A stretch of 50,132 nucleotides of DNA from Anaerolineae bacterium (GTDB lineage Bacteria > Chloroflexota > Anaerolineae > 4572-78 > J111). Where the stretch lies: the NCBI GenBank assembly GCA_016931895.1, contig JAFGDY010000113.1, positions 1 to 50,132 on the forward strand. The letters are read 5' to 3'. The notes under the pieces were generated by a model that made no database searches, was not told the origin of the DNA, and was given only the letters and a program-made list of their open reading frames with translations. Position 1 is the stretch's first letter. Every line of letters begins with the position of its first letter. A program made the position numbers and the translations under genes. Below are positions 11,722 to 33,338 of this stretch, in pieces.

Positions 11722-12597
11722 ATGAAACATACCCTGTTGATCGTTGAGGACGACCTGGACACCTCGGAGATGCTCCGGGTCTATTTTGAAGCACAAGGGT
11801 ATCGAATTGTTACCGCAGGAGGCGGACAGGAGGCATTGGAGAAATGTCGGGGTGAACTTCCCGACCTGATCCTGCTAGATGTCCGCCTTCCTGATATTGA
11901 CGGTTTTGAAGTAGGCCGGCACCTGCAAGACGATGTGCGGACCAGCCGCCTGCCGGTTATTTTTGTTACCGAGCGCCGCGAACGGGACGACCGCATTGTT
12001 GGCCTTAAACTGGGCGCTATTGACTACATCACCAAACCGTTTGACGTGCAAGAACTGCGCTTGCGCGTGCGCAATGCCCTCCGCCGGGCCGGCAGCCAGA
12101 ACAATCCTATCACCGGCCTGCCCGGCGAAAAGCTCACCAGCGACCGGCTTGGCTTAATGTTGGAACGTGAAACCTGGTCGGTTCTGGCGGTCAATATTCG
12201 CGGCCTGGATAAATTTAATGAGATTTACGGCTTTGTGGCCCGAGACGACGTATTGCGGGCTATTGCCCTCACCCTGACCAGCGCCGTTGACGAATTGGGC
12301 AGTATTGACGACTTTGTGGGCCATCCGGCAGAAGAGCAGTTTATCATCATTACCGTGCCCAACAAAGGCGCGCAGTTGAGCCGTCAAATTGAAGAGCGGC
12401 TTAAACAGGCCATGACCTACTTTTACCCCATTCACGACCGCGAAACAGGCTACGTGCAGCGCGGCGGTGAGGATGGGGAAAAAGTGGAAGTGCCGTTTAT
12501 GGATGTCTCCACGGTTATTCTCTCGCAAAAACACGAAAATTTCTCCAGCGTTGCCAGTTTGCGCAAGGCGTTGAGTCAGCCGCTCAAAACTCAGTAG
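11722..12597 (+). CDS. response regulator, REC plus degenerate GGDEF-like domain
   Basis: Encodes 291 residues. The receiver (1-120) is complete: E9/D10/D11, phospho-acceptor D53, T83, K106 in DYITKPF. The rest starts with NPITGLPGEKL, the lead-in of GGDEF domains, but the catalytic GG(D/E)EF is replaced by GHPAEEQF, so it should not make cyclic-di-GMP. It may bind a nucleotide or act through protein contacts. It is in an operon with V4R-1. A close paralogue with the same degenerate layout is at 23821. A strong terminator follows. Confidence 0.85.
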   Translation: MKHTLLIVEDDLDTSEMLRVYFEAQGYRIVTAGGGQEALEKCRGELPDLILLDVRLPDIDGFEVGRHLQDDVRTSRLPVIFVTERRERDDRIVGLKLGAIDYITKPFDVQELRLRVRNALRRAGSQNNPITGLPGEKLTSDRLGLMLERETWSVLAVNIRGLDKFNEIYGFVARDDVLRAIALTLTSAVDELGSIDDFVGHPAEEQFIIITVPNKGAQLSRQIEERLKQAMTYFYPIHDRETGYVQRGGEDGEKVEVPFMDVSTVILSQKHENFSSVASLRKALSQPLKTQ

Positions 12598-18565: not shown

Positions 18566-19396
18566 ATGGCGTTAAAAGGAAATCTGCGAGATTTTAGTAC
18601 CACGCAGCTTCTCAATTTAGTTAATCTGGCTCGGAAAACGGGCAAGCTAACTGTTAATGGTCAAGAACAAAAAGCCGTTCTGCATTTTCGAGAGGGCAGA
18701 TTGATTCATGCCTGCACCAACGCCGACGAAGGCCATTTAACGGCGATGTTGTTGAGAACGGGCAAGTTAACTGAAGAGCAGGCTTCAACAGTTAGCAGTA
18801 AGTCCGGCGGTTCATCCTCAGACAAAGTGATGGGCAAGTATTTAATGGATGCCCGCCTGGTATCCAGAGACGATATTGTCCAGGGTGTTAAGGATTACAT
18901 GTTAGAAATTGTGTATAATCTTTTCACCTGGGACGAAGGGGAATTCTTTTTTGAGCAGGATATGTTGCCCTCCAGCGATAGAATTACGGTGCCCCTGAAT
19001 CTGGACAATGTAATTCTGGAAGGCAGCCGGCGCATCCAGGAATTTGATAAACTGCAAGATGAACTGCCCGACCTGGCCAAGATAGCGCTTAAAATTACGG
19101 ATAAACCCTTGCGTGATGTTAAACTTACCCAGGATGATTGGCGCGTTATCTCCCATATCCACCCCCGTAACACGGTTAAACAAATTGCCCAAAACAACAA
19201 CATGGACGAATTTCAGATTAGAAAAATCGTTTATGGCATGTTGCAGGCCGGGTTAGTAGAAACAATTATCCCTGAAGGCATGGAGCCTAAAGAAAGAACG
19301 CCGGTTACGCGCGCCGGCCGGCGGGCGGCCAGCCAATCACCTGCGGAAAAACGCAGCGTTGTCACCAAACTGATTGATCGCATTAAACGGATCTAA
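18566..19396 (+). CDS. DUF4388 (PATAN) protein with C-terminal winged-helix-like region
   Basis: Encodes 276 residues. The N-terminal ~105 residues show the DUF4388/PATAN pattern: LKGNLRDFSTTQLLNLVNLARKTGKL, VLHFREGRLIHA, then YLMDARLVSRDDIVQGVKDY with EGEFFFEQD. Residues ~190-240 (WRVISHIHPRNTVKQIAQ, MDEFQIRKIVYGMLQAGLVE) look like a winged helix, and the tail is basic. PATAN domains are signalling adaptors often found with receivers and small GTPases. The gene for a CvnD-like GTPase follows 120 nt later, supporting a shared pathway. ATG 18566 has TAGGTAGGA. Confidence 0.85.
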   Translation: MALKGNLRDFSTTQLLNLVNLARKTGKLTVNGQEQKAVLHFREGRLIHACTNADEGHLTAMLLRTGKLTEEQASTVSSKSGGSSSDKVMGKYLMDARLVSRDDIVQGVKDYMLEIVYNLFTWDEGEFFFEQDMLPSSDRITVPLNLDNVILEGSRRIQEFDKLQDELPDLAKIALKITDKPLRDVKLTQDDWRVISHIHPRNTVKQIAQNNNMDEFQIRKIVYGMLQAGLVETIIPEGMEPKERTPVTRAGRRAASQSPAEKRSVVTKLIDRIKRI

Positions 19397-19516
19397 GTGA
19401 TTTGTTTTTAATAGTGGTTTCAAACGGGTATTTGCCGTTGCCGGTAGCACTAATTTGTCACCACTTGATTTATAAAACGATAATTTCAAAGTCTTTATTT
19501 GAGGTGGGTCAATTCG

Positions 19517-20059
19517 ATGCAAACCGTAAAAATGGTCGTCACGGGCCCCTTTAGTGCCGGGAAAACAGAATTTATCAGCAGTGTCAGCGAGATTGACGTT
19601 GTGACCACGGAACGGAAAATCTCCAGCGATGCCGAACGGGTTAAAGAAGAAACGACTGTGGCCATGGATTTTGGTCGGATTACGGTGGATGATGACCTGG
19701 TACTTTATCTGTTCGGCACGCCCGGACAAAGACGTTTTGACTTTATGTGGGAAATTTTGTCGGAGGGCATGCTTGGTTTTGTGGTGCTGGTAGATAGTGT
19801 CAGGCCTGAAACGTTTCGGGAGGCCAAGCATATCCTGGAGGTTTTCCGGGGATATGCTACCACGCCTTATGTTGTGGCGGCCAACAAACAGGATATGCCT
19901 GACGCCTGGACCCCCGAAGACCTGAGGATTGCTTTAAAGATAGATAAAGAAATCAAAGTGCTCAGTTGCGTGGCCCTGGACAAGGAAAGCGTTAAAAACG
20001 TGTTGCTTGAATTGCTTTACTCTATCTTAGAGAAGATGCAGGTGGAGGAAGAGGGATAA
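19517..20059 (+). CDS. small Ras-like GTPase of the CvnD/conservon type
   Basis: Encodes 180 residues from ATG 19517 (GAGGTG 10 nt upstream; an in-frame TTG six codons earlier is less likely). The G motifs are P-loop GPFSAGKT (10-17), the conserved VAMDFGRI strand, G3 as FGTPGQ (67-71) in place of DTAGQ, and G4 NKQD (123-126). This set, including the FGTPGQxRF motif, matches the CvnD GTPases of Streptomyces conservons and relatives. There they act with a histidine-kinase-like protein, a roadblock protein and DUF742. Here the roadblock and DUF742 partners are absent and a DUF4388 protein sits upstream instead. Confidence 0.9.
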   Translation: MQTVKMVVTGPFSAGKTEFISSVSEIDVVTTERKISSDAERVKEETTVAMDFGRITVDDDLVLYLFGTPGQRRFDFMWEILSEGMLGFVVLVDSVRPETFREAKHILEVFRGYATTPYVVAANKQDMPDAWTPEDLRIALKIDKEIKVLSCVALDKESVKNVLLELLYSILEKMQVEEEG

Positions 20060-20303: not shown

Positions 20304-21107
20304 GTGAGTTCTATAGTAACTGACCAGGGAATTGTTCATTATGAGGTCTATGGTCGTGGTCAGCCGGTTATCCTGCTCCATGGATGGTTAGGCTCTTGGG
20401 GATATTGGCTCAGGACCATGGAGTCCCTCAAAAATCAATATCGGTGTTATGCTTTAGATTTTTGGGGCTTTGGCGATTCTGGCAAGCGCCGGAGCAGTTA
20501 TCAGGTAAGTGATTTTGTAAACCTGGTTGAGCAGTTTATGGAAAGACTGGGTATTGAATCTGCCCCGGTGGTGGGCCACTCCATGGGTGGCACCGTAGCT
20601 ATCTCTCTGGCCTTAACTAAACCTGAATGTGTGCAAAAAGTGGTTGCTGTTGGTTCCCCCATTGTGGGAGACTCGCTGAACATTTTTCTTCGCCTGGCGG
20701 GTAAGCCCTGGATTGCCTCACTGGTGTGGCATATGCCTACCGCTTTACAGTTGGGAATCAAAGTTTTTTCCCCTTACGTTGTCAAAGATTGGCCCGAGTG
20801 GTACAAGATGATTACGCGTGACCTGTCGCGCACGACGCTGGAAGCTTTTTTTTTAAGCATCAACTCGTTGCACAAAACTGATCTCAGGCCCCATTTGCCG
20901 GGCATAACCCGGCCTATTATGGGTATTTATGGTGTAGGCGACAATGTAGTTCAACCAAGCCAGGCTTATCTTATTGATAAAAGCGTGCCTGTTTCTCGGA
21001 TAAAAATGATGGCCGGTTCCGGGCACTTTCCAATGTTAGACGAGCCACAAGCTTTTAATGAAAACCTGGCCGAGTTCCTTGCTTTTGGATTTTCGTCGGC
21101 AAATTAA
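20304..21107 (+). CDS. alpha/beta hydrolase 1 (intact catalytic triad)
   Basis: Encodes 267 residues, GTG start at 20304 with TTGAGG upstream. It has the oxyanion motif HGWLGS, the nucleophile elbow GHSMGG (Ser93), the acid in YGVGDNVVQP and the base in GSGHFPMLDE. The helical cap region (LRLAGKPWIASLVWHMPTAL) is hydrophobic, as in enzymes acting on lipid-like or aromatic substrates. No signal peptide. It is a paralogue of 31845-32642, which has lost the serine. It lies in the block with the acyl-reductase-like gene, so an acyl ester or thioester substrate is plausible but unproven. Confidence 0.9.
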   Translation: MSSIVTDQGIVHYEVYGRGQPVILLHGWLGSWGYWLRTMESLKNQYRCYALDFWGFGDSGKRRSSYQVSDFVNLVEQFMERLGIESAPVVGHSMGGTVAISLALTKPECVQKVVAVGSPIVGDSLNIFLRLAGKPWIASLVWHMPTALQLGIKVFSPYVVKDWPEWYKMITRDLSRTTLEAFFLSINSLHKTDLRPHLPGITRPIMGIYGVGDNVVQPSQAYLIDKSVPVSRIKMMAGSGHFPMLDEPQAFNENLAEFLAFGFSSAN

Positions 21108-21327: not shown

Positions 21328-22656
21328 ATGAAGAAGATTATCATTCGGGATCAAACCCTAATTTCACCGTTCAATGAACCTGCGCGTGATTTGCGCATTA
21401 TGAATAAGCCCCTCTGGCTCTACCAGCGAGATGTGCTTAGCCCTTACTGCCGGGAAGAGTTGGAATGTGAATCTTTTAGAAAAATTTTTGCTTTGCCCCC
21501 CCAGTTCCTGTCCGGTGAACTGGTTGTTTACCGGGATAATCTCTTTTTTGACGACTTCCTCTTTGCGGCCTTTATTACCGCCGCCCGCCAATTGAACCGA
21601 CCGGCCCAAATTGCCTTTGCCAAAAACGATGCGGCTATTGTTGCCCACGCCCTGCCCGTTCAAGATGGAATTCGCCCGGCAGGCGAGGTATACGTGGCCG
21701 ATCTTTTTTATTACCCAAACGGCCTCTCCGCCGCCACCGAATCTCCGCAGCCCCTGGTTATTGACACCCAATCCAGAGAAATGGGCTATTACCGCGTGCC
21801 CACTTACATGGCCAACGAACGGGGAGAACTGGGCTTCAAAGTTCCCCTGCGGGCTTTTTTATCCATAGAAAATTGGGTGCATGTGTTTATGGCCAATTGC
21901 CCCTTTGGCGTTTTTGCCCACGGCGCGCGGATTGAAAAATCGCTGGATAATTTTGGCACCATGCTTAAAGTGCTGTGGCACTCTTTGCTGGAGCGCAAGC
22001 AGTTTTTATCCTCTTCGGCGCTGGTAGTGGTGGGTAAAAACACCCAAATTGACCCGGCCGCCGTTATTCAGGGCCCGGCCATTATTGGCGATAACGTGAC
22101 CATTGGCCCCGGCTCGGTGATTAATGCCTGCGTAATTGGCGATAACGTTAACGTGATGCAAGGCACTCAATTGCTGCTCAGTGTGGTGGGCGATGGTTCT
22201 TACCTGGGGTTTCGGGCGGCCCTGTTTATGACCACCTTGATGGAAAATTCGCTGGTGGCCCAAAATACTTGTCTGCAACTCAGCGTAGTAGGCCGCAACA
22301 CCTTTATTGGCGCCGGCAATACGTTTACCGACTTTAACCTGATGGCCAAACCCTTAAAGGTTTTACACCGAGGCGAGTTGTGCCAGGTGGGCATGCCGGT
22401 GTTGGGCGGCTGTGTGGGGCATAATTGTCGCATTGGCTCCGGGCACACCTTTTTCCCGGCGCGCTCGGTAGAATCGGATGTGGTGTTGTTTGCCAGGGAA
22501 GGCCGGACCATAATTACCAAAAATATAGCCTATCAAGATAGCGACCATCACGATTATCCTGATTCCGGCCACGTGGTCCGGTATCACGATGACCCTTTGC
22601 CCGAAGAACCAGAATTCACTTCAACGCCTGAGCCGGTGACTCAATCGGTCACCTGA
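21328..22656 (+). CDS. left-handed beta-helix (hexapeptide repeat) protein with N-terminal extension
   Basis: Encodes 442 residues. Residues ~235-400 are hexapeptide repeats of the LbH fold: IDPAAVIQGPAIIGDNVTIG, then VIGDNVNVMQGTQLL, SVVGDGSYLGF and VVGRNTFIGAGN, as in GlmU-like and acyl/acetyltransferases. The N-terminal ~215 residues (ARDLRIMNKPLWLYQRDVLSPYC, LFFDDFLFAAFITAAR) occupy the position of a nucleotidyltransferase domain but lack an LxxGxGxRM signature, so sugar-nucleotide synthesis is doubtful. An acyltransferase or a lost-activity scaffold are both possible. It is followed 27 nt later by the acyl-reductase-like gene, so the two are probably co-expressed. Confidence 0.75.
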   Translation: MKKIIIRDQTLISPFNEPARDLRIMNKPLWLYQRDVLSPYCREELECESFRKIFALPPQFLSGELVVYRDNLFFDDFLFAAFITAARQLNRPAQIAFAKNDAAIVAHALPVQDGIRPAGEVYVADLFYYPNGLSAATESPQPLVIDTQSREMGYYRVPTYMANERGELGFKVPLRAFLSIENWVHVFMANCPFGVFAHGARIEKSLDNFGTMLKVLWHSLLERKQFLSSSALVVVGKNTQIDPAAVIQGPAIIGDNVTIGPGSVINACVIGDNVNVMQGTQLLLSVVGDGSYLGFRAALFMTTLMENSLVAQNTCLQLSVVGRNTFIGAGNTFTDFNLMAKPLKVLHRGELCQVGMPVLGGCVGHNCRIGSGHTFFPARSVESDVVLFAREGRTIITKNIAYQDSDHHDYPDSGHVVRYHDDPLPEEPEFTSTPEPVTQSVT

Positions 22657-22683: not shown

Positions 22684-23787
22684 ATGGACAATTTTGCCTT
22701 TATCATTCATCCGGTTCACCCCAAACGAGACGTGCAGCGTAAGTACCCGTTGTTGGGCAAACTACTGCCGGAACCGGCCATTCACTACTTTTCCCAATTC
22801 TTTCCCCCGGTTTATATTTCTCACATTACCGGCATCACCTCCGCAGCCACCGGCAAAGAAATAGAAGGCTGGTTTATTGCCTGTCCCTTTACCCCCAAAC
22901 AAATGATCTCGCTGCCCCCGGAAACCGTTTACAAAAAGGTGATTGCCACCGGAAAATTGGCCCAAAAACTGGGAGCCAAAATATTGGGGCTGGGCGGGTT
23001 CACCTCGGTGGTGGGTGACGCCGGAATAACCATTGCCCAACACCTTGAAATTCCCGTAACCACGGGCGATAGTTACACCATTGCTACCGCCGTGGAAGCC
23101 ACCCTCAAAGCGGCCCGGCGCATGAACATTGATCCCGCCGGGGCCACGGCGGCGGTGGTGGGCGCCACGGGTTCCATTGGCCGGGTGTGCGCGCAATTGT
23201 TGGCCCGCCGGGTGCCGGAAGTGATCCTCATTGGCCGCCGGCTAGATGCCTTAAAGCAGGTGCAAACCCTGGTCGCGGCCCAGAGCCAGGCCCGCGTTAA
23301 AGTGAGCACCAACATGCAAGATCTTCAACAAGCCGAGATGGTGCTGACCGTAACCAACGCCATTAAAACCGTTATTGAACCGCACCATCTCAAAAGTGGG
23401 GCCGTAGTGTGTGATGTGGCCCGGCCCAGGGATGTGTCGCGCCGGGTGATTGAAGAACGCAACGATGTGCTGGTGGTAGAAGGGGGCATGGTGAGAGTGC
23501 CGGGGCCGGTTAATTTTAATTTTGATTTTGGCTTTCCGCCCGGTATGGCCTATGCCTGCATGGCCGAAACCATAACCCTGGCCCTGGCCGGTTGTTATCA
23601 AAGTTACACGCTGGGCAAGAATATAAAATTAGAACAGGTAGAAACCATGGCCGCAATGGCCGGTCAACATGGGTTTGAAGTAAGCGGCTTTCGCAGTTTT
23701 GAATTGCCGGTAACAGACGAGCAAATTGCCCAGATCAGGCAAAATACGGTGCAAAAACAGGCTCGTTTAAAGTGGGCCAGCTCGTAA
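22684..23787 (+). CDS. long-chain acyl-[ACP] reductase (AAR)-like oxidoreductase
   Basis: Encodes 367 residues. It aligns by eye along its length with cyanobacterial acyl-ACP reductase AAR: ITSAATGKEIEGWFI near the start, LGLGGFTSVV, Rossmann motif VVGATGSIGRVCAQLL, and the C-terminal block YACMAETITLALAG followed by TLGKNIKLEQVETMAAMAGQHGF. The catalytic acyl-thioester cysteine of AAR (Cys294 in Synechococcus) corresponds to Cys292 here, and the NADPH-binding GATGxIG is intact. The expected reaction is NADPH-dependent reduction of a fatty acyl thioester to a fatty aldehyde. No aldehyde-deformylating oxygenase gene is present in the window, so the fate of the aldehyde is open. Automatic annotation would probably call this a shikimate dehydrogenase-like protein. 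Confidence 0.8.
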   Translation: MDNFAFIIHPVHPKRDVQRKYPLLGKLLPEPAIHYFSQFFPPVYISHITGITSAATGKEIEGWFIACPFTPKQMISLPPETVYKKVIATGKLAQKLGAKILGLGGFTSVVGDAGITIAQHLEIPVTTGDSYTIATAVEATLKAARRMNIDPAGATAAVVGATGSIGRVCAQLLARRVPEVILIGRRLDALKQVQTLVAAQSQARVKVSTNMQDLQQAEMVLTVTNAIKTVIEPHHLKSGAVVCDVARPRDVSRRVIEERNDVLVVEGGMVRVPGPVNFNFDFGFPPGMAYACMAETITLALAGCYQSYTLGKNIKLEQVETMAAMAGQHGFEVSGFRSFELPVTDEQIAQIRQNTVQKQARLKWASS

Positions 23788-23820: not shown

Positions 23821-24723
23821 ATGGGTAAAGGCCGTATCCTGGTGGTAGAAGACGACATTGATATTTCCAAAATGTTGCGCATCTATTTCGACTCGCAAGG
23901 GTATGAGGTGTTGGTGGCCAACCGGGGTAACGATGCCCTGGAGATGTGTCAAACCAAATTGCCCAACGTGGTGGTGTTGGATATCCAGTTGCCGGATATT
24001 GACGGTTATGAAATATGTCGCATCTTGCGCAGTAATACCCGCACCAGCTACGTGCCCATTATCTTTCTTACCCAGAAAGATGAGCGTAGCGATAAAATTG
24101 CCGGGCTGGAACTGGGCGCCGATGATTACATCACCAAACCGTTTGACATTGAGGAACTCAAATTGCGGGTTGAGGGCGCCATTCGCCGCTCGCAGCGTGA
24201 AGCGCTTACCCACCCGGTCACCAATTTGCCGGCCGGCAAACTCATCGAGGAGCAACTCAAAAGAGTAAAAGACTCAACCGAACCCTGGCTTTTCCTTTAC
24301 TTTGGCATCCGCTATATCAACGCTTTTAAAGAAATAGCCGGCCCTCTCCAGGTTAATGAAGTTTTGGTTTTCCTGGCTGATATTATGCGGGAAGTGGTCA
24401 ACGAACAAGGCTCCTTAAACGATTTTATCGGCCAGGCGTCTGATAATGATTTTATTGTCATTACCACGCCTGCAAAAGCCTCAACCATTTGTCACATGGT
24501 CACCCAACGGTTTAACAAAGAAAGCGATGTCTTTTATCCCTTCCCCATCCGGGAAGCCGGGAAAGTGACCTACGAGGATATTGACGGCCAGGCCCACGAA
24601 TCACCTTTAATGGAGTTGGCCGTTGGCGCGGTCTCAAGCCAAGATGGCCCATTTGCCGATATTGTGCAAATTACCGAAGACGCGGCAGAAAACCGGCGGC
24701 GTAATTCTGGTTGTCCAAAATAG
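23821..24723 (+). CDS. response regulator, REC plus degenerate GGDEF-like domain (paralogue)
   Basis: Encodes 300 residues. The receiver is intact (E10/D11/D12, phospho-acceptor D54, T84, K107 in DYITKPF). The C-terminal domain starts HPVTNLPAGKL and has IGQASDNDFIVIT where GG(D/E)EF should be, so it is non-catalytic. The same layout is found in 11722-12597, next to V4R-1. It lies 33 nt after the acyl-reductase gene, with GAAAGAGGT before the ATG. It is the likely output or relay for the giant kinase immediately downstream. Confidence 0.87.
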   Translation: MGKGRILVVEDDIDISKMLRIYFDSQGYEVLVANRGNDALEMCQTKLPNVVVLDIQLPDIDGYEICRILRSNTRTSYVPIIFLTQKDERSDKIAGLELGADDYITKPFDIEELKLRVEGAIRRSQREALTHPVTNLPAGKLIEEQLKRVKDSTEPWLFLYFGIRYINAFKEIAGPLQVNEVLVFLADIMREVVNEQGSLNDFIGQASDNDFIVITTPAKASTICHMVTQRFNKESDVFYPFPIREAGKVTYEDIDGQAHESPLMELAVGAVSSQDGPFADIVQITEDAAENRRRNSGCPK

Positions 24724-24908: not shown

Positions 24909-27900
24909 GTGAGTAGTAATGAATTATCAGCCCGGGTTGATCAATTGAGTCATTTGCCAGGCGATACCAAAAAAACTTTATCAAATTTGGGCGACTCGCC
25001 TGAACAGAATACGTCTGCGCCCCCTTCCCCAAAGGCAGATTTAAACCAGGCATTAATCATTGTCAACCAAATTGGCCAAGCCCTGACCACCTCTCTTCAC
25101 CTGTTAGATACTTCCTCTATTTGCCACGCCGTGCTTGACAGTCCGCAGTTAAAGGAACTATTTCCGTTTGACGCGGCGGAAATATGCCTGTGGGACGATC
25201 AAACGGATACGTTGACCGCCAAATTGCGCGTGCCGGAAGACCAGCCCGACCTTCAAGCTTACGACCGCACCTATCAGCCGCACGAAGGTTACACCGGCTG
25301 GCTGGCCACCCACCAAGCTCCCCTGCTGATTAACGATACCCGGCAGAACTCTAAAGTTACGCCCAAGATGGGCCTGGATAATTTCCCCTATCGTTCCTTA
25401 ATGGGCATGCCGCTGAAGGCGGGCCTGAAGTTTTTGGGAACCTTGGAATTGGCCGCTGCGCCGGTTGGGGCTTACAGCCAACAACACTTGATTCTGCTGG
25501 AGGTTGTGGCCAATCAAATGGCCATTGCCCTGGACCATGCTCGCCTGTTTTATGCCACCCAGCATAAAGTCTCCGAGTTATCCCTGCTGTTTGATGCCAG
25601 CCGCGAGTTGTCGGCCACCCTGTCTTATGATGAACTGCTGCACAGTTTAACCCGGCAAATGATTAAAGCCTTTCCCGCCGACGACTGCGCCATTTTTGAG
25701 TTTGACGAAGCAACCAGCGCCTTGAATTTAGTGCATCAATATCGCGATACTGCCCCCGCTACAGCCGCTGTGTTCCCCGGCCTTAGTAAAGAAACCTTTG
25801 CCCGCGCCCTGGCCACCATCCCGCTTTGGGAAAATTTGTTAAAAAAACAGGTGCCCCTCATCATTCGCACCGATGACCCCCTGGCTAATTTGGCCGAGGT
25901 AGATTTGCTTAAAGAATGTCAATGTGGCACGATGGTGGGCATCCCCTTAACCAGCCGCGATAAAATGACCGGCTTGTTGGCCCTCTTTTCGGTTGATGCC
26001 CAGGCTTTCACCGACGATCAAATTCTCCTGGCGCAATCGCTGGCCGGCCAGGCCAACATAATGATGGAAAATGCCCGTCTCTTTAGCCTGACCGACCAGC
26101 GGTTACAACGGCGCATTGACGAACTGGCCGGCTTGCAGCGGGTTAGCCGCGAGTTAAACAGCACCCTTGATCTGGACATAATTTTAGATCTGGTTTTGGC
26201 CGAGGCCTTGCGGGTGACCCGGGCCGATTTGGGGCAAGTCAATCTATACGACCCCCGGACCGGTAAACTGACGGCGCACAAAGAACAAGGTGGAACTGGC
26301 GGCTCTATCCCGCCGGCAAACGAAGCATCACCCGTTGGCCAAAAAATTATGGAACGCGCCCTGGATACGGGGCAGTCAATTTTAATTTCTGATGTACGGG
26401 AGAATGAGGATACCCAGGGTTTTGGCGCCCATACCCATTCCCGGGTGGTGGTGCCCATTTACTATGGCAGCGAGCCGGCCGGCGTGATCAACCTGGAAAG
26501 CAACCGGCGGCATGGCTTTACCCAAAACCAACTCCGTTACCTGGAGGCGCTATCTAACCAGGCGGCGGTGGCCATTGGCAATGCCCAGGCGTATGAGGAA
26601 CAGCGGCTTGAACGCGAGCAGGCCGGCCGGCGCATTGACCAACTCTCCCGCCTGGCCGAAATTAGCCATATCTTCCGCACCAACCGGCCCCTGTACGAAG
26701 TGCTGGAAGACATTGCCTATGCCATTATTGAGTCCGTAGGCTACCGGGTGGTGCTCATTAGCTTGGTGGCGGACGAGCCGCCCGCGCTTTCTCTTGAGGT
26801 GGGAGCCGGTATTCCGATTGCCGAATTTCGGGCGTTTCGCCAGGCAATAGGCCCACAGCCTTTGGCCCATTTGCCAAAAATTATGCTGGCCGACTTTTGC
26901 TTGAGCCGGTCTTACTTTATCCCCGTTGAGCGCAAAGAAGTGTGGCAGGGCAAATTGGATATTTCCTACCTGGCCCGGCAAGCCTCCCCTGAAAATATGG
27001 TTAAACCGGACAATGGCCTGGCCTGGCAGGCCGGCGATGTTTTATTTGTGCCTTTGACCGATGTGGAAAACAACATCATTGGTTTGCTTACCGTTGAGGA
27101 CCCCGACTCCGGGTTGCGGCCCGGTATTTCGTCGGTGGAAACGCTGGAAATTTTTGCCAATCATGCGGCCACGGCTATTGAGAATGCCCGCCTGTTTGAG
27201 CGCGAGCAGCAGCGCCGCCGGTTGGCCGATACGCTGCGCGGCGTGGCCGAAGCAATTAGTTCCAAGCTTGAGTTTGATGAATTATTGAATATTGTATTGC
27301 GCGAACTGGCCAATGTTTTGGCCTACGATATCGCCTCAGTGTATCGGCTGGAAGAGGACCAATTGGTGGCGGTTGGCGGGCGAGCCTGGGAGCACAGCCG
27401 GCAGATGTTGGAGATTTCTTTTTCAATGATGGACGTCAACCCCCATCGGCTGGTTATTGAAACGCAAGAGCCGGTGTTGGTTAAGGATGCTCGCCGGCAA
27501 TATCCCCAGGTTTTTGCCAAACCGCCTTATAATCGGGTAAAAAGTTGGTTGGGCGTTCCCCTCACTTATGGAGCCAATATCTTGGGGTTGATGTCGCTGG
27601 GCAGCGCCAAGGCAGACGTTTTTAGCCAGGAAGATGCGGGGGTAGTGTTGGCCTTTGCCAACCAGGTGGCGGTGGCTATGCAAAACGCGCGCCTGTTTGA
27701 CGAGGCCCGCCAGCAGGTGCGCCAACTGGCGGCGCTGACGGAAGTGGCCCAATCACTGAACCGGGCCTTGGACCTGAACGAAGTATTGAACCTGGTGCTT
27801 GACGCCGTTTTTGACCTGGCAGGCTGCGAGCAGGGCACCATTTGGTTGGTGGATAATTATACCAATACGGTTAAAATTGCCAATACCAAAAACATCTCAG

Positions 27901-30900
27901 ATTTTATGGTTGAGCTGGTCAACGAAAGCGCCATCTCGGTCAATTCCGAACCCTTTGCCCCAGTCATCCAGTCCGGCGACGTGCGGGTGGTTGAACGCAG
28001 CGTAACCAAAAAAGACGATATTGCTCATTATGGCCTGCCTTTCCCGGATGATGTTACCTACGTGCCCTTAAAAACGGAGCAAGGCGTGATTGGTATTTTG
28101 GCCCTGGAAACCGTTATTCACCATAAAAACATGCTCCAGTTGGTCACTACCCTGGCCGACCTGGCCGCCATTGCCATTGACAATACCCGCCTGCTGGAAA
28201 ACACCCGCCAGCGGGCCAATGAGATGCAACGCCTTTACAATTTGGGGGTTGAAGTAAGCGGCATGCTGGAAGTGCAGCAAGTGATGCATTCCGTGATAGA
28301 AACTACTATCACCCTCACCGATACCCAGCTTGGCGTAATTTTGTATTGGGAAGAAGAAACGCAGCAATACCTGGTTGATAGCGCCACCACGGCTGAAAAA
28401 TTGCGTTCCAAACTCACCTTTGACCGTCTGGAAGCCGCCGCCAACAACAGTGGCACGTCCTTGTGGTATGAGGTCACCCAACAGGTGATGGCCGACGAAG
28501 CGCCGGTCAATGTGAATCTGTCGCCCCAGTTAAGCGAGCCATCTGCCTTGAACCATCTGGAGGCGCAACCGCCCCCGGACCTGCCGGCCGAACACGCTCG
28601 GGCGTTGGGGGTAAGGGCCATGTTGGGCGTGCCCATCAAGGTGCAAAACCAGGCCAATGGCGCTATTTTTGTGGGCAGCCTTGAAGCGCGAAACTTTAAT
28701 GATTACGACCTCCAATTGTTGTCGTTTGTGGCCAACCAGGCAGCCGTGGCCATTCGCAACGCTCAACTGGTGCAACGTTTGAATCGGTTTACCGAGGAGT
28801 TGGAGCAGCGGGTGGCCCAACGCACCGAAGAACTGGCCCAAACTCTGTTAGACTTAACCGAGGAGCGCGACCGGGTGGAAGCCCTGTACCAGATTACGCG
28901 CGAGATTTCGGCCAGCCTGGACCTGGACAGAATATTGACCCAGGCGCTCAGCCTGATCAACCGGGCCGTAGGCATTTCGCACGGTTCCATCCTGCTTACC
29001 AGTCAAGAGACAGGCGGCCTGGTTTACCGGGCTGCCCTGGGCCGGGACACGCCCTTACCCAAAGGCGCTGAAGCCCAAACCGAGCTGGATTATATCTTGG
29101 CCCAGCAAGTGGTTGGAATGCACCAGCCCCAAATTATTGCCGATTTATCCGCAGAGTTGGAAGCTGAAATCCAACCGAAACCCCTTGAACACGGTTCGGC
29201 TATGGCCGTGCCGTTGATTACGGGCGAAGAGGTGGTGGGGGCGTTGTTGCTCTTCCACCCCGACGTTGATTACTTTACCGAGGACCATCTTAAATTGGTT
29301 ATGGCGGCCACTTCGCAAGTGGCCACCGCCATAAATAATGCAGAGTTGTATCGGCTGATCACGGACCAGGCCGACCGTTTGGGCGTGATGCTCCGGCTGC
29401 AAGCGTCGGAAGCGGCTAAAAACGAGGCTATTTTGCGGGGTATTACCGACGGCGTGCTGGTGCTGGATGCCAGCCGCAACATTGTGCTACTCAATCCCAA
29501 AGCGGCTGAAATCTTGGAGATTGACCCTACCGTCGCCGAAAATCAACCACTCGGCCAGATTTTAGGGCAGTCCGCCTCGGCGGCAGCCCTGGAATTGACG
29601 CAGCGTTTTTATGACAACCTGCTCAAAGCGCTGGACGAACTACAAGCCGGCCGGCCCTCGGCCGAGTTTCGCCTGGATGTTGAGCAAAAAGCAGTGGTTG
29701 TCACCCTGGCCCCGGTAGCCCTGGGCGGCGAAGAACGGCCCAGTATTGTTACCGTATTGCGCGACATCAGCAAAGAAGCAGAAATTGAGCGCATGAAAAA
29801 CGAATTTATCTCTACCGTTTCCCATGAATTGCGCACTCCGCTCACTTCAATTAAGGGCTATGCTGATTTGCTGGTTTCCTCTAACGCTGCCGCCCGGCTG
29901 GGCGAACTCAATCCGATGCAGCGCCGTTTTGTAGAGGTTATTCAATCCAATACCAATCGCCTGGCTCACCTGGTGAATGATATTCTGGAAATTTCTCGCA
30001 TTGAAACCGGCCGGGTTAAGCTGGACCTGGAGGCCCTGGACCTGGTCAGTCTTATCCAGGAGGTCGCTATTTCCTTTGAAGGACAACTCGTGCAAAAACC
30101 GATGAACTTTTCTTTGGATGTGCCCGATTCCTTGCCCCCGGTGTATGCCGATAAAGCCAGGGTGGTGCAGATATTGGTCAACCTGATTGGTAACGCCTGG
30201 CGTTATACTCCCGCAGGCAAAGACATTATTGTGCGCGCCCAGGTTAAAGACGACCGGTTTGTGCAGATAGATGTGGAAGACACCGGCATTGGCATTGTGG
30301 AAAAAGACCTGGCGTACATTTTTGAGCGGTTTTATCGTTCTGAGCGGGGAGAAGTGGAGATGGTGGATGGCACCGGCCTGGGCCTGTCCATTACCAAAAG
30401 TTTTGTGGAGATGTTGGGCGGCAAAATTTGGGTGGAAAGCCAGGTGGATGTTGGTTCTACCTTCAGCTTTACCTTGCCCCTGGAAGCGGCCAGGGATATT
30501 TTGGCCGCAGAGGCCGCCCAACCTGACCAGGCGCAGGTATTGCTAATTGAAGACGACCCGGCGGTGGTACAGATGTTGAAGCCCCGTTTGGAAGAAAAAG
30601 GTTACTGGGTAGTGGTCAAAAGCAAAGGACCGGCTGCTTTAGAATTTGCCCGTAACTCAAGCCAAACCTTGAGGGTGATAATGTTAGATATTCTTTTGCC
30701 GGAAACCAATGGGTTTGAGTTACTAACGCAGTTCAAAAAAAACAAAGCCACCGCCGATATTCCTATTTTTTTAACGGCCTTGTTTGTAAATCAAGAGGAT
30801 CAGGCTTTGGGTTTGGAGATTATTGATTACATTTCAACCTCTTATGCCGAAACCCAAATATCGGAAATTGTGGGGCTGGCCCTCAACCACTCCAAAACCT

Positions 30901-31295
30901 TACAGGCCGACAACGGCCAGGAAGTTTTACCCCAGGACCACGTGTTGATTGTGAACGATAACACCGAAACGGCCAGTTGGCTCAAAGAAACACTCCATAA
31001 TTGCGGCTGTTTTGTGCAGCGAGCCTTTAACAGCCAGCAGGCCATAGATATAGCCGCCAGTAAACCCGATTTGATTTTGGCCGATGCCAACATGCCCGGC
31101 ATTGAGGGCGGAACACTTATTGCCCAACTTCGCCGTACGCCCGAAACAAAAGAGATACCCATTATTGCCATTACCGAGAGCGCGGCGCCGGACGATACGC
31201 TGAAAATATGGCCCATCGGGGGCCGGTTTTTTACGGCAGATACTTTGGTTGCAGAAATTATGCAAATTGAGCATAATTCTAAGCGTGATAAGTAG
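24909..31295 (+). CDS. giant hybrid histidine kinase: ~8 GAF, PAS, HisKA, HATPase, two REC
   Basis: Encodes 2128 residues from GTG 24909 (GAGGGGG upstream). About eight GAF-type modules follow each other (roughly 40-215, 225-395, 410-560, 580-760, 775-935, 945-1100, 1110-1290, 1320-1480), most ending in an A-(I/V)-A-(I/L/M)-x-N/D-A-x-L helix. A coiled coil (EELEQRVAQRTEELAQ) precedes the last GAF. PAS is at ~1500-1615. The HisKA H-box is SHELRTPL with His1639. HATPase is at ~1740-1860 (NLIGNAWRYTP, DTGIGI, GTGLGLSI). REC1 (~1875-1990) has Asp1927 but Thr1977 in place of the conserved Lys. REC2 (from ~2011) has VNDN instead of the acidic pair and no KP motif. There is no transmembrane segment, so it senses cytoplasmic ligands. 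It sits between two receiver genes. Confidence 0.92.
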   Translation: MSSNELSARVDQLSHLPGDTKKTLSNLGDSPEQNTSAPPSPKADLNQALIIVNQIGQALTTSLHLLDTSSICHAVLDSPQLKELFPFDAAEICLWDDQTDTLTAKLRVPEDQPDLQAYDRTYQPHEGYTGWLATHQAPLLINDTRQNSKVTPKMGLDNFPYRSLMGMPLKAGLKFLGTLELAAAPVGAYSQQHLILLEVVANQMAIALDHARLFYATQHKVSELSLLFDASRELSATLSYDELLHSLTRQMIKAFPADDCAIFEFDEATSALNLVHQYRDTAPATAAVFPGLSKETFARALATIPLWENLLKKQVPLIIRTDDPLANLAEVDLLKECQCGTMVGIPLTSRDKMTGLLALFSVDAQAFTDDQILLAQSLAGQANIMMENARLFSLTDQRLQRRIDELAGLQRVSRELNSTLDLDIILDLVLAEALRVTRADLGQVNLYDPRTGKLTAHKEQGGTGGSIPPANEASPVGQKIMERALDTGQSILISDVRENEDTQGFGAHTHSRVVVPIYYGSEPAGVINLESNRRHGFTQNQLRYLEALSNQAAVAIGNAQAYEEQRLEREQAGRRIDQLSRLAEISHIFRTNRPLYEVLEDIAYAIIESVGYRVVLISLVADEPPALSLEVGAGIPIAEFRAFRQAIGPQPLAHLPKIMLADFCLSRSYFIPVERKEVWQGKLDISYLARQASPENMVKPDNGLAWQAGDVLFVPLTDVENNIIGLLTVEDPDSGLRPGISSVETLEIFANHAATAIENARLFEREQQRRRLADTLRGVAEAISSKLEFDELLNIVLRELANVLAYDIASVYRLEEDQLVAVGGRAWEHSRQMLEISFSMMDVNPHRLVIETQEPVLVKDARRQYPQVFAKPPYNRVKSWLGVPLTYGANILGLMSLGSAKADVFSQEDAGVVLAFANQVAVAMQNARLFDEARQQVRQLAALTEVAQSLNRALDLNEVLNLVLDAVFDLAGCEQGTIWLVDNYTNTVKIANTKNISDFMVELVNESAISVNSEPFAPVIQSGDVRVVERSVTKKDDIAHYGLPFPDDVTYVPLKTEQGVIGILALETVIHHKNMLQLVTTLADLAAIAIDNTRLLENTRQRANEMQRLYNLGVEVSGMLEVQQVMHSVIETTITLTDTQLGVILYWEEETQQYLVDSATTAEKLRSKLTFDRLEAAANNSGTSLWYEVTQQVMADEAPVNVNLSPQLSEPSALNHLEAQPPPDLPAEHARALGVRAMLGVPIKVQNQANGAIFVGSLEARNFNDYDLQLLSFVANQAAVAIRNAQLVQRLNRFTEELEQRVAQRTEELAQTLLDLTEERDRVEALYQITREISASLDLDRILTQALSLINRAVGISHGSILLTSQETGGLVYRAALGRDTPLPKGAEAQTELDYILAQQVVGMHQPQIIADLSAELEAEIQPKPLEHGSAMAVPLITGEEVVGALLLFHPDVDYFTEDHLKLVMAATSQVATAINNAELYRLITDQADRLGVMLRLQASEAAKNEAILRGITDGVLVLDASRNIVLLNPKAAEILEIDPTVAENQPLGQILGQSASAAALELTQRFYDNLLKALDELQAGRPSAEFRLDVEQKAVVVTLAPVALGGEERPSIVTVLRDISKEAEIERMKNEFISTVSHELRTPLTSIKGYADLLVSSNAAARLGELNPMQRRFVEVIQSNTNRLAHLVNDILEISRIETGRVKLDLEALDLVSLIQEVAISFEGQLVQKPMNFSLDVPDSLPPVYADKARVVQILVNLIGNAWRYTPAGKDIIVRAQVKDDRFVQIDVEDTGIGIVEKDLAYIFERFYRSERGEVEMVDGTGLGLSITKSFVEMLGGKIWVESQVDVGSTFSFTLPLEAARDILAAEAAQPDQAQVLLIEDDPAVVQMLKPRLEEKGYWVVVKSKGPAALEFARNSSQTLRVIMLDILLPETNGFELLTQFKKNKATADIPIFLTALFVNQEDQALGLEIIDYISTSYAETQISEIVGLALNHSKTLQADNGQEVLPQDHVLIVNDNTETASWLKETLHNCGCFVQRAFNSQQAIDIAASKPDLILADANMPGIEGGTLIAQLRRTPETKEIPIIAITESAAPDDTLKIWPIGGRFFTADTLVAEIMQIEHNSKRDK

Positions 31296-31438: not shown

Positions 31439-31822
31439 ATGAGCAGTCCCTTAATCCTGGTAGCTGAAGATGAAAAGGATATAAGAGAATTAGTTGTTTT
31501 TTCTTTGCAAATCAGCGGTTTTAATGTGGTTGAAGCGCCCAACGGCGAGGAAGCCGTTAAAAAGGCGGTTGAAGTAGAACCGGATCTAATTTTGATGGAC
31601 GTGCGCATGCCCAAAATGACCGGGTATGAAGCCTGCAAGGCCTTGAAAGAACATGAAAGTACCAGCGATATTCCCGTTGTGTTTTTATCGGCCAAGGGGC
31701 AAGAAGCGGAAATCAACGCCGGCCTGGAATTGGGCGCGGTGGAGTATTTGCTCAAACCCTTTGCCCCGGATGAGTTATCGGCCAAAGTCAACCAGATTTT
31801 AACCAAACATGGCAAAATGTAA
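31439..31822 (+). CDS. single-domain response regulator
   Basis: Encodes 127 residues, a CheY-like receiver only: E10/D11 acidic pair, phospho-acceptor D54, S84 in VFLSAKG and K106 in YLLKPF. With no output domain it is probably a phosphate shuttle or a protein-interaction switch. It follows the giant kinase by 143 nt and precedes hydrolase 2 by 22 nt. GGGGAG lies about 13 nt before ATG 31439, a rather long spacing. Confidence 0.9.
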   Translation: MSSPLILVAEDEKDIRELVVFSLQISGFNVVEAPNGEEAVKKAVEVEPDLILMDVRMPKMTGYEACKALKEHESTSDIPVVFLSAKGQEAEINAGLELGAVEYLLKPFAPDELSAKVNQILTKHGKM

Positions 31823-31844
31823 CTGACCCGTTATATTGTTAAAG

Positions 31845-32642
31845 ATGAGCGCCGTTGTAATTGATGGTAGAATTGTACATTATGAAGCCTTTGGGCGGGG
31901 CTGGCCCCTGTTGTTTTTGCATGGCTGGCTAGGCTCGTGGCGTTACTGGATGTCTACCATGGAAGCAATGTCGGACAAACATCGCACTTACGCCCTGGAT
32001 TTGTGGGGTTTTGGCGATTCCGATAAAACCGGTTCCCGTTATAGTGTGCCGGATTACGTGGCTTTGATTGATAATTTTGTAGAAAATATGGGTATCCGCG
32101 AAGCCCCCATTATTGGCCATGCCCTGGGGGCCACCGTGGCCCTGGAATATGCGGTGCGCTATCCAGACCGGGTCAAAAAGATTATGGCCGTTAGCCTGCC
32201 CATAGGGGCCGAAAGTATCAATCGCAATTTGGTTGATTTTGCCAACAATTCGGTGATGGCCAAAATGCGCTGGTGGCGACAGATTACCTACAAGGAAGTG
32301 CAAACCGAAGCCGAAAAAGCCGGCCAGGAAGCCGTGAGCGTTAGCCTTCAGTCGGCGGCCCAAACCGATATTCCCAGCCGAATTCAGAGCATTGGCCAAT
32401 TCAAAGATTCAATGCTGCTGGTTGTTTACGGCGAAAAAGATGATCTGATTGATCCGGCTCCCAGCCGGGAACTGGACGGCCAATGGGACAACGTGCGGCC
32501 CATCGGCCTATCAGAATCAAAACATTTTCCCATGCTGGATGAAGCGGCCAAATTCACCCGCCTGCTCAAAGATTTTCTTGACGTGCAAGACGATTTATCT
32601 GTTTTGGAATTAAAAGAGGAGTGGCGTCGCCGCACGCGCTGA
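31845..32642 (+). CDS. alpha/beta hydrolase 2, nucleophile serine replaced by alanine (pseudoenzyme)
   Basis: Encodes 265 residues from ATG 31845 (no clear ribosome site; coupling to the upstream receiver is likely). The fold motifs match hydrolase 1 closely: LHGWLGSWRYW, LDLWGFGDSD, acid region YGEKDDLIDP and base region SKHFPMLDE. The nucleophile elbow, however, reads GHALGA: codon 93 is GCC (Ala, 32121-32123), where hydrolase 1 has Ser93. The serine-hydrolase mechanism should therefore be lost. The rest is well conserved and the frame is intact, so selection has kept the protein, perhaps as a ligand-binding sensor or a partner of the adjacent V4R protein. Confidence 0.88.
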   Translation: MSAVVIDGRIVHYEAFGRGWPLLFLHGWLGSWRYWMSTMEAMSDKHRTYALDLWGFGDSDKTGSRYSVPDYVALIDNFVENMGIREAPIIGHALGATVALEYAVRYPDRVKKIMAVSLPIGAESINRNLVDFANNSVMAKMRWWRQITYKEVQTEAEKAGQEAVSVSLQSAAQTDIPSRIQSIGQFKDSMLLVVYGEKDDLIDPAPSRELDGQWDNVRPIGLSESKHFPMLDEAAKFTRLLKDFLDVQDDLSVLELKEEWRRRTR

Positions 32643-32675
32643 TTTTTAGCCTGACTCAGCGAATTGACCAAATTA

Positions 32676-32684
32676 TGGTATAAT
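32676..32684 (+). promoter_or_regulatory. extended -10 promoter of V4R-2
   Basis: TGGTATAAT with no good -35 at the right distance, typical of an extended -10 promoter. The predicted start is near 32691. The ribosome site GGGAGGT follows at 32702-32708. Confidence 0.6.
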
Positions 32685-32714
32685 CAACTTACTACAATAT
32701 TGGGAGGTTATCTG

Positions 32715-33338
32715 ATGCCAGCAGATCGTCCAATGTCTAATGCAACCGTTCGGGTGTTATTGGATGCAGTAGAGGAAGTAATGGGAGAAAACGGCACCAA
32801 AGCGGTGTTAAATGCCGGAGGCTTAAAGGACCTGATTGACAATTATCCCCCCAAAGACCTGGAAATGGCTCGCCAATTTTCTGAGTATGGGGCCATCCAA
32901 CAAGCGGTGGAAGATTTTTATGGGCCGCGAGGCGCGCGCGCAATGCTGCTGCGCATTGGCCGGGCCACCTTTCGTTTTGGCTTAAAAGACCAGCCCGCCA
33001 TTTTGGGACTGGCCGGCATTGCCTTAAAAGCTATCCCCGAACAGAAACGAATGAAACTGATCCTGGAAAGAATGGCCTCCGCCGCCACCGACCGGATCAA
33101 TCAACCCAGCCACGTGCGCGAGGAAGACGACGCCTTTTATTACATCCAGGATGAATGTCCCTGCCGCTGGCGGCCCCAACACGATAGGCCCTGTTGTTAC
33201 GTGAGTGTGGGGGCCATTATGGAAGCTATGGCCTGGACCACGGGCAAGGTCTACAAGGTAGAAGAAGTAGCTTGTATTGCTAACGGAGCTTCTAACTGTG
33301 TTTACCGCATTCCCAAAGAATCTGCTGAAGAGGAGTAG
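32715..33338 (+). CDS. V4R-domain protein 2
   Basis: Encodes 207 residues from ATG 32715 (GGGAGGT 6 nt upstream; an upstream in-frame ATG overlaps the promoter). It is a paralogue of V4R-1 along its whole length: VEEVMGENGTKAVLN, DFYGPRGARAMLLRIGRATF, then the V4R cysteine region. Here the cysteines are CPC (148, 150), a CC pair (160, 161), and VEEVACIANGASNCVY (187, 195). The cysteine pattern is shifted relative to V4R-1 (CPVC at 151/154). If a metal is bound, the coordination differs between the two. It is the last gene of the signalling block, closed by a strong terminator. Confidence 0.87.
   Translation: MPADRPMSNATVRVLLDAVEEVMGENGTKAVLNAGGLKDLIDNYPPKDLEMARQFSEYGAIQQAVEDFYGPRGARAMLLRIGRATFRFGLKDQPAILGLAGIALKAIPEQKRMKLILERMASAATDRINQPSHVREEDDAFYYIQDECPCRWRPQHDRPCCYVSVGAIMEAMAWTTGKVYKVEEVACIANGASNCVYRIPKESAEEE

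Follow-up and report, generated by a model that had tools for sequence, protein, structure and literature searches.

In RsbQ–PAS modules, according to the portions of PMC3183031 cited here, a hydrolase gene lies beside a PAS signalling gene, the output in Gram-negative bacteria can be a histidine kinase, and signalling by RsbQ requires the triad S96-D219-H247. The hydrolase fold is also used for perception by D14/DAD2 and KAI2. In the parts of PMC3531792 drawn on here, the petunia D14 protein DAD2 is described as requiring its triad for activity, and GID1, a hydrolase turned non-catalytic receptor, as having lost the His and contacting its hormone through Ser. A further precedent is provided by the cofactor-independent dioxygenases HOD and AqdC: the cited sections of PMC10548524 report that the nucleophile of HOD is non-essential, that some members naturally carry Ala instead of the Ser, and that a His–Asp pair serves as the base, and they mention no kinase partner for these enzymes.

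The window examined here (the whole stretch of DNA that was analysed, 50,132 nucleotides, corresponding to C113, one of the 320 contigs that make up a 6.06-Mb genome) encodes a hydrolase, Hyd2, that resembles these systems in part. As in RsbQ–RsbP of Bacillus and others, the hydrolase gene adjoins a gene for a PAS-containing signalling protein. However, 114 of 139 Hyd2 orthologues lack the Ser of the triad, the residue following position 93 is Leu in 129 of the 139 where RsbQ has V97 after its Ser, the partner is a many-GAF kinase with a receiver, and Hyd2 has a C-terminal tail of its own. By analogy, the RsbQ–PAS module is the nearest precedent for Hyd2. Like D14/DAD2 and KAI2, Hyd2 is proposed to use the hydrolase fold for perception, but the window copy has A93 in place of the active-site Ser. 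As a proposed non-catalytic receptor it is also comparable to GID1, although it is the opposite case, having retained the His in 138 of 139 orthologues and lost the Ser in most of them. The parallel with hydrolase-derived hormone receptors drawn in the preliminary description is thus a loose one. Hyd2 agrees with HOD and AqdC in combining a dispensable elbow Ser, or Ala, with a retained dyad, but its acid lies 106 residues past position 93, whereas the acid in HOD is placed about 25 residues after the elbow (D126, 25 residues past S101). Overall, Hyd2 is best fitted by a hydrolase-derived sensor lying outside the RsbQ, D14/KAI2 and GID1 types.

The hyd2 frame is intact and encodes Ala (GHALGA) at residue 93 in place of the nucleophile, exactly where its paralogue Hyd1 has Ser, as the preliminary description had read from the sequence. 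Its statement that the acid, the base and the fold are kept was borne out as well. Hyd2 has the acid and His of a serine-hydrolase triad without the elbow nucleophile; D199 and H227 align with D224 and H252 of CumD, a meta-cleavage product hydrolase, and A93 falls in the column of CumD residue 103, an Ala in the crystallized S103A mutant. The Pfam Abhydrolase_1 profile scored Hyd2 at 94.5 bits and Hyd1 at 107.3 bits (gathering score 25.8), and among the NCBIfam matches listed none reached its cut-off for either protein. The predicted structure of Hyd2 (pLDDT 82.3, pTM 0.86) is confident except for stretches of the lid region and the tail, and matched solved alpha/beta-hydrolases with Z up to 26.7 among the matches listed; Hyd1 was also modelled. 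Among those matches the nearest structures were CumD-type hydrolases and esterases, with CumD leading the solved structures in the sequence-profile comparison (6.7e-28) and ranking among the top fold matches. CumD is an active enzyme, unlike the role proposed for Hyd2, and most of the matched CumD structures are engineered S103A mutants. RsbQ and HOD were not among the structure and profile matches listed for Hyd2.

Table 1. Features of the conserved locus in the window.
Feature	Coordinates	Strand	Remarks
DUF4388 protein	18566..19396	+	start of conserved locus
Small GTPase	19499..20059	+	upstream of Hyd1
Hyd1	20304..21107	+	267 aa, GTG start; Ser93 (GHSMGG), matching acid and His
Hexapeptide-repeat protein	21328..22656	+	downstream of Hyd1
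Acyl-ACP-reductase-like protein	22684..23787	+	similar to TIGR04058 and PigE, scores below their cut-offs
Receiver and GGDEF-like protein	23821..24723	+	degenerate signature
Giant hybrid histidine kinase	24909..31295	+	7 GAF stretches, PAS beside HisKA, HATPase, 2 receivers
REC1, stand-alone receiver	31439..31822	+	directly upstream of Hyd2
Hyd2, alpha/beta-hydrolase	31845..32642	+	265 aa; ATG start at 31845; ORF 31836..32642
Hyd2 nucleophile elbow, G-H-A93-L-G-A	32115..32132	+	sequence reading
Hyd2 C-terminal tail, K257 to R265, K-E-E-W-R-R-R-T-R	32613..32639	+	conservation among orthologues
V4R-domain protein	32664..33338	+	directly downstream of Hyd2; that position only in some lineages

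The Hyd2 set comprised 139 orthologues from 137 genomes, 81 genera and 26 families, recognized by their match together with the tail, and the Hyd1 set comprised 41 sequences, fetched for part of the genomes, after removal of one unrelated row. Duplicate loci (L036, L038, L040 and L043), a near-copy of L194 (L200), truncated frames (L211 and L212, both Ala, and L215, Ser) and an unrelated hydrolase (L147 (7208)) were dropped before counting; the sampled genomes are mostly incomplete. L200 (G234:C39) is a near-copy of a locus of family f1 in a genome assigned to another family, and its contig is probably misbinned. Both paralogues were present in all 12 genomes searched of the family to which the window belongs. 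A search of the class at E 1e-40 matched 157 of 396 genomes, Hyd1 matches included, and a sample of the phylum at 1e-45 matched 53 of 301, some of them outside the class. Within its own genome the closest relative of Hyd2 is Hyd1 (154 bits, with the runner-up at 52). A quick LG+G4 tree, built with column 93 omitted, separated every Hyd1 from every Hyd2; the branch between them has an SH-aLRT of only 65, which is weak, and the grouping therefore leans also on the tail and the neighbouring genes. The best explanation is that Hyd2 is an anciently duplicated alpha/beta-hydrolase, with Hyd1 its triad-bearing paralogue.

Residue 93 of Hyd2 was Gly in 65 orthologues, Ala in 33, Ser in 25, Thr in 9, Asp in 6 and Asn in one. 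The idea that Ala93 is fixed, by selection or otherwise, fails against these six residue types. The rest of the active site behaved differently: His92 and Gly95 of the elbow were present in all 139 orthologues and the acid Asp199 in 132, with the catalytic His227 missing from a single one. By parsimony, column 93 changed at least 25 times (25 and 26 on two trees), compared with 0 changes for H92 and G95, 1 for H227 and 6 for D199, the median for the protein being 28. Scored as Ser or non-Ser, the position switched at least 13 times, and its root state by parsimony was ambiguous between G and S. Hyd1, by contrast, kept Ser-Asp-His in all 41 orthologues; the rate seen in Hyd2 predicts about 6.9 changes for its column 93, and 0 were observed (rough Poisson P 0.001). 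Variation at Hyd2 position 93 extends to close relatives, with mixed residues in 5 of the 26 genera that have more than one Hyd2. The congeneric proteins L165 and L166 differ at 3 of 261 residues (dN/dS 0.024), and one of the three is S93A. Among the 25 members with Ser93, 24 have both Asp and His and one has Tyr for His.

All residue types found at position 93 are small, and the sharp turn of a nucleophile elbow requires small residues. An Asp nucleophile at the elbow is the type found in dehalogenases and epoxide hydrolases; the window Hyd2 has Ala there, and the six Asp93 members all belong to one genus (g43), where the acid position 199 is occupied by Asn or Ser in five of them (L175, L176, L180, L206 and L208). 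The combination may have arisen in one or two events, and a swap of the charged residue between positions 93 and 199 is possible. We also considered a fixed replacement nucleophile and rejected it as far as invariant positions are concerned: no new Ser, Cys, Asp or Thr occurs among the invariants found only in Hyd2. It seems that no nucleophile is needed at residue 93.

Estimates of dN/dS were restricted to pairs at least 75% identical, saturated distant pairs having given a misleading Hyd2 median of 0.45. Among 89 close pairs of Hyd2 the median was 0.09 and the maximum 0.178, indicating strong purifying selection, the outcome of a check that the preliminary description had called for; Hyd1 gave 0.059 (17 pairs). 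Pairs sharing the same non-Ser residue (median 0.09, 67 pairs), Ser/Ser pairs (0.081, 10 pairs) and pairs differing at position 93 (0.097, 12 pairs) gave similar values, and loss of the Ser thus caused no visible relaxation of constraint on Hyd2. The ten loci of the set that come from outside the class all have Gly93, which again shows that the loss carries no visible cost. We conclude that the His–Asp site of Hyd2 is under strong selection. A sequencing error, which the preliminary description had named as what would undo its reading, and a recent pseudogene were both rejected: the frames are intact, dN/dS is about 0.09, and the 12 genomes of the family contain 14 Hyd2 copies, of which 13 have Ala and one (in G009) has Ser. 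The step from an intact, nucleophile-free frame to a non-catalytic role therefore holds in so far as the constraint points to a role independent of Ser93; the part that depended on a fixed Ala does not hold.

Hyd2 keeps constant company. Directly upstream of it, in the 133 loci tested, we found REC1 in 121, the kinase in 8 and the receiver–GGDEF gene in 4, so that the kinase or its receiver occupies that position in 129, and in the 10 out-of-class loci Hyd2 directly follows the kinase or REC1. In each of the six kinases scanned, GAF domains are accompanied by a PAS beside HisKA. Upstream of Hyd1 there was a GTPase in 29 of 36 loci and REC1 or the kinase in none, and the hexapeptide-repeat protein lay downstream of Hyd1 in 19 of 39. 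The order that recurs across the class, in part or whole, is DUF4388, GTPase, Hyd1, (V4R), hexapeptide protein, acyl-reductase-like protein, receiver–GGDEF, kinase, REC1, Hyd2. The V4R protein that the preliminary description had singled out does lie beside Hyd2 in the window, but it is directly downstream of Hyd2 in only 12 of the 125 loci whose flank is long enough (a V4R gene lies downstream of Hyd1 in 13 of 39), which makes it a weak candidate for the partner. Second Hyd2 copies in two genomes (L195 and L196, in G001 and G002) were accompanied by REC1, with neither the kinase nor V4R detected alongside.

Several positions are conserved in Hyd2 and absent or less conserved in Hyd1: G30, R33 (133/139), Y34, R239 (139/139), L240 (138/139), K257, W260 and R262 (both 139/139) and R263 (137/139). 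Invariants common to both paralogues include H12-Y13-E14, H26, W28, S31-W32, W35, H92, D199 and H227.

With the probability a little above even in our judgement, Hyd2 is a sensor subunit that binds a ligand without hydrolysing it, within a GAF–PAS kinase–receiver module present in two or more classes of the phylum. This reading fits best because His and Asp are kept without the nucleophile, the tail is absent from Hyd1 and the neighbour is a kinase. Behind it stand a nucleophile that has been lost and freely exchanged, the retention of His and Asp, purifying selection, gene linkage and the Hyd2-specific invariants. A small molecule would occupy the old pocket, held by His227/Asp199 and by the region of His26, Trp28 and His92 that is common to Hyd1, and would escape turnover, Hyd2 having no nucleophile. 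The bound state would then be relayed to the kinase or the receiver, probably through R239/L240 and the K-x-x-W-x-R-R tail; the role of the tail is a guess, since it is of low confidence in the predicted model. Hyd1, with its triad intact, would make or remove the same molecule. From these patterns we infer that Hyd2 binds a ligand, that it contacts the kinase or the receiver, and that the ligand is common to Hyd1. Some observations run against a sensor: Ser93 is retained in 25 of the 139 orthologues, the tree separates Hyd1 from Hyd2 weakly, and four loci (L017, L018, L019 and L082) have Hyd2 without an adjoining kinase or REC1, a close REC1 orthologue not having been found in those genomes (55–81% complete).

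Conservation of H227 and D199 would be expected equally of an enzyme, and the main rival explanation is that Hyd2 catalyses a non-hydrolytic reaction with the His227–Asp199 dyad as general base, in the manner of cofactor-independent dioxygenases with the same fold, residue 93 merely having to be small. The nearly invariant His and Asp beside a nucleophile that alone varies, the restriction of position 93 to small residues and the dispensable nucleophile reported for HOD (the cited part of PMC10548524) all agree with such an enzyme. We nevertheless regard it as unlikely. A dyad would probably be disturbed by Asp or Asn at position 93, with five of the six Asp93 members also having Asn or Ser at 199, and a fixed kinase or receiver neighbour would be unusual for a metabolic enzyme. 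The distant placement of the acid also counts against this explanation, although it speaks against the HOD family itself and not against dyad chemistry generally.

The co-occurrence of the paralogues raises the question of whether Hyd2 instead serves Hyd1, as a regulatory or scaffolding pseudo-subunit (a heterodimer or allosteric partner) with no sensing of its own. The two lie in one conserved locus and share H12-Y13-E14, W28, S31-W32 and W35, and only 17 of the 157 matching genomes show a single match, in a count in which matches were not typed as Hyd1 or Hyd2. Hyd2, however, travels with REC1 and the kinase and does not adjoin Hyd1, and several genomes from other classes have the pair far apart on one contig or on separate contigs, which leaves this arrangement quite improbable. 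Slighter still is the chance that Hyd2 is conditionally active, with the Ser93 (or Asp93) lineages hydrolysing and the others having lost the nucleophile independently, with the protein retained for its fold or to bind a partner. The 24 complete Ser-Asp-His sets, the six Asp93 members and the repeated Ser/non-Ser switches would suit it, but selection is alike in Ser–Ser and non-Ser pairs, S93A separates L165 and L166, which are otherwise 99% identical, and Gly93 is uniform in the out-of-class loci.

A more specific reading can be offered tentatively, although on balance we doubt it: one duplicated hydrolase would have given rise to an enzyme and receptor pair in at least two classes, with Hyd1 processing a small molecule made by the locus, probably lipid-derived, and Hyd2 reporting it to the kinase. 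The acyl-reductase-like and hexapeptide proteins of the same locus are candidate makers of that molecule. Such a pair would parallel, in bacteria, the perception of hormones by hydrolase-derived receptors, with His and Asp kept for binding while the nucleophile drifts. Hyd2 offers an unusually clear natural experiment, in which the residue that defines a serine hydrolase is swapped freely within one family while the His and Asp that accompany it remain in place, and it makes testable the question of what function such a site can serve in an alpha/beta-hydrolase once the nucleophile is gone. We found no description of the Hyd2 family among the open-licence PMC papers searched, and the results point to a widespread, apparently undescribed sensor module.

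Three further features were observed in passing. The acyl-ACP-reductase-like gene sits inside a signalling locus. In one Hyd2 (L267:5016-6107) the lid region is enlarged by an insert of about 100 residues. Finally, two receiver–GGDEF proteins, one at 11722-12597 and the one of Table 1 at 23821-24723, have signatures that appear degenerate by eye (PAEEQF and SDNDF), so the locus may hold further pseudo-enzymes.
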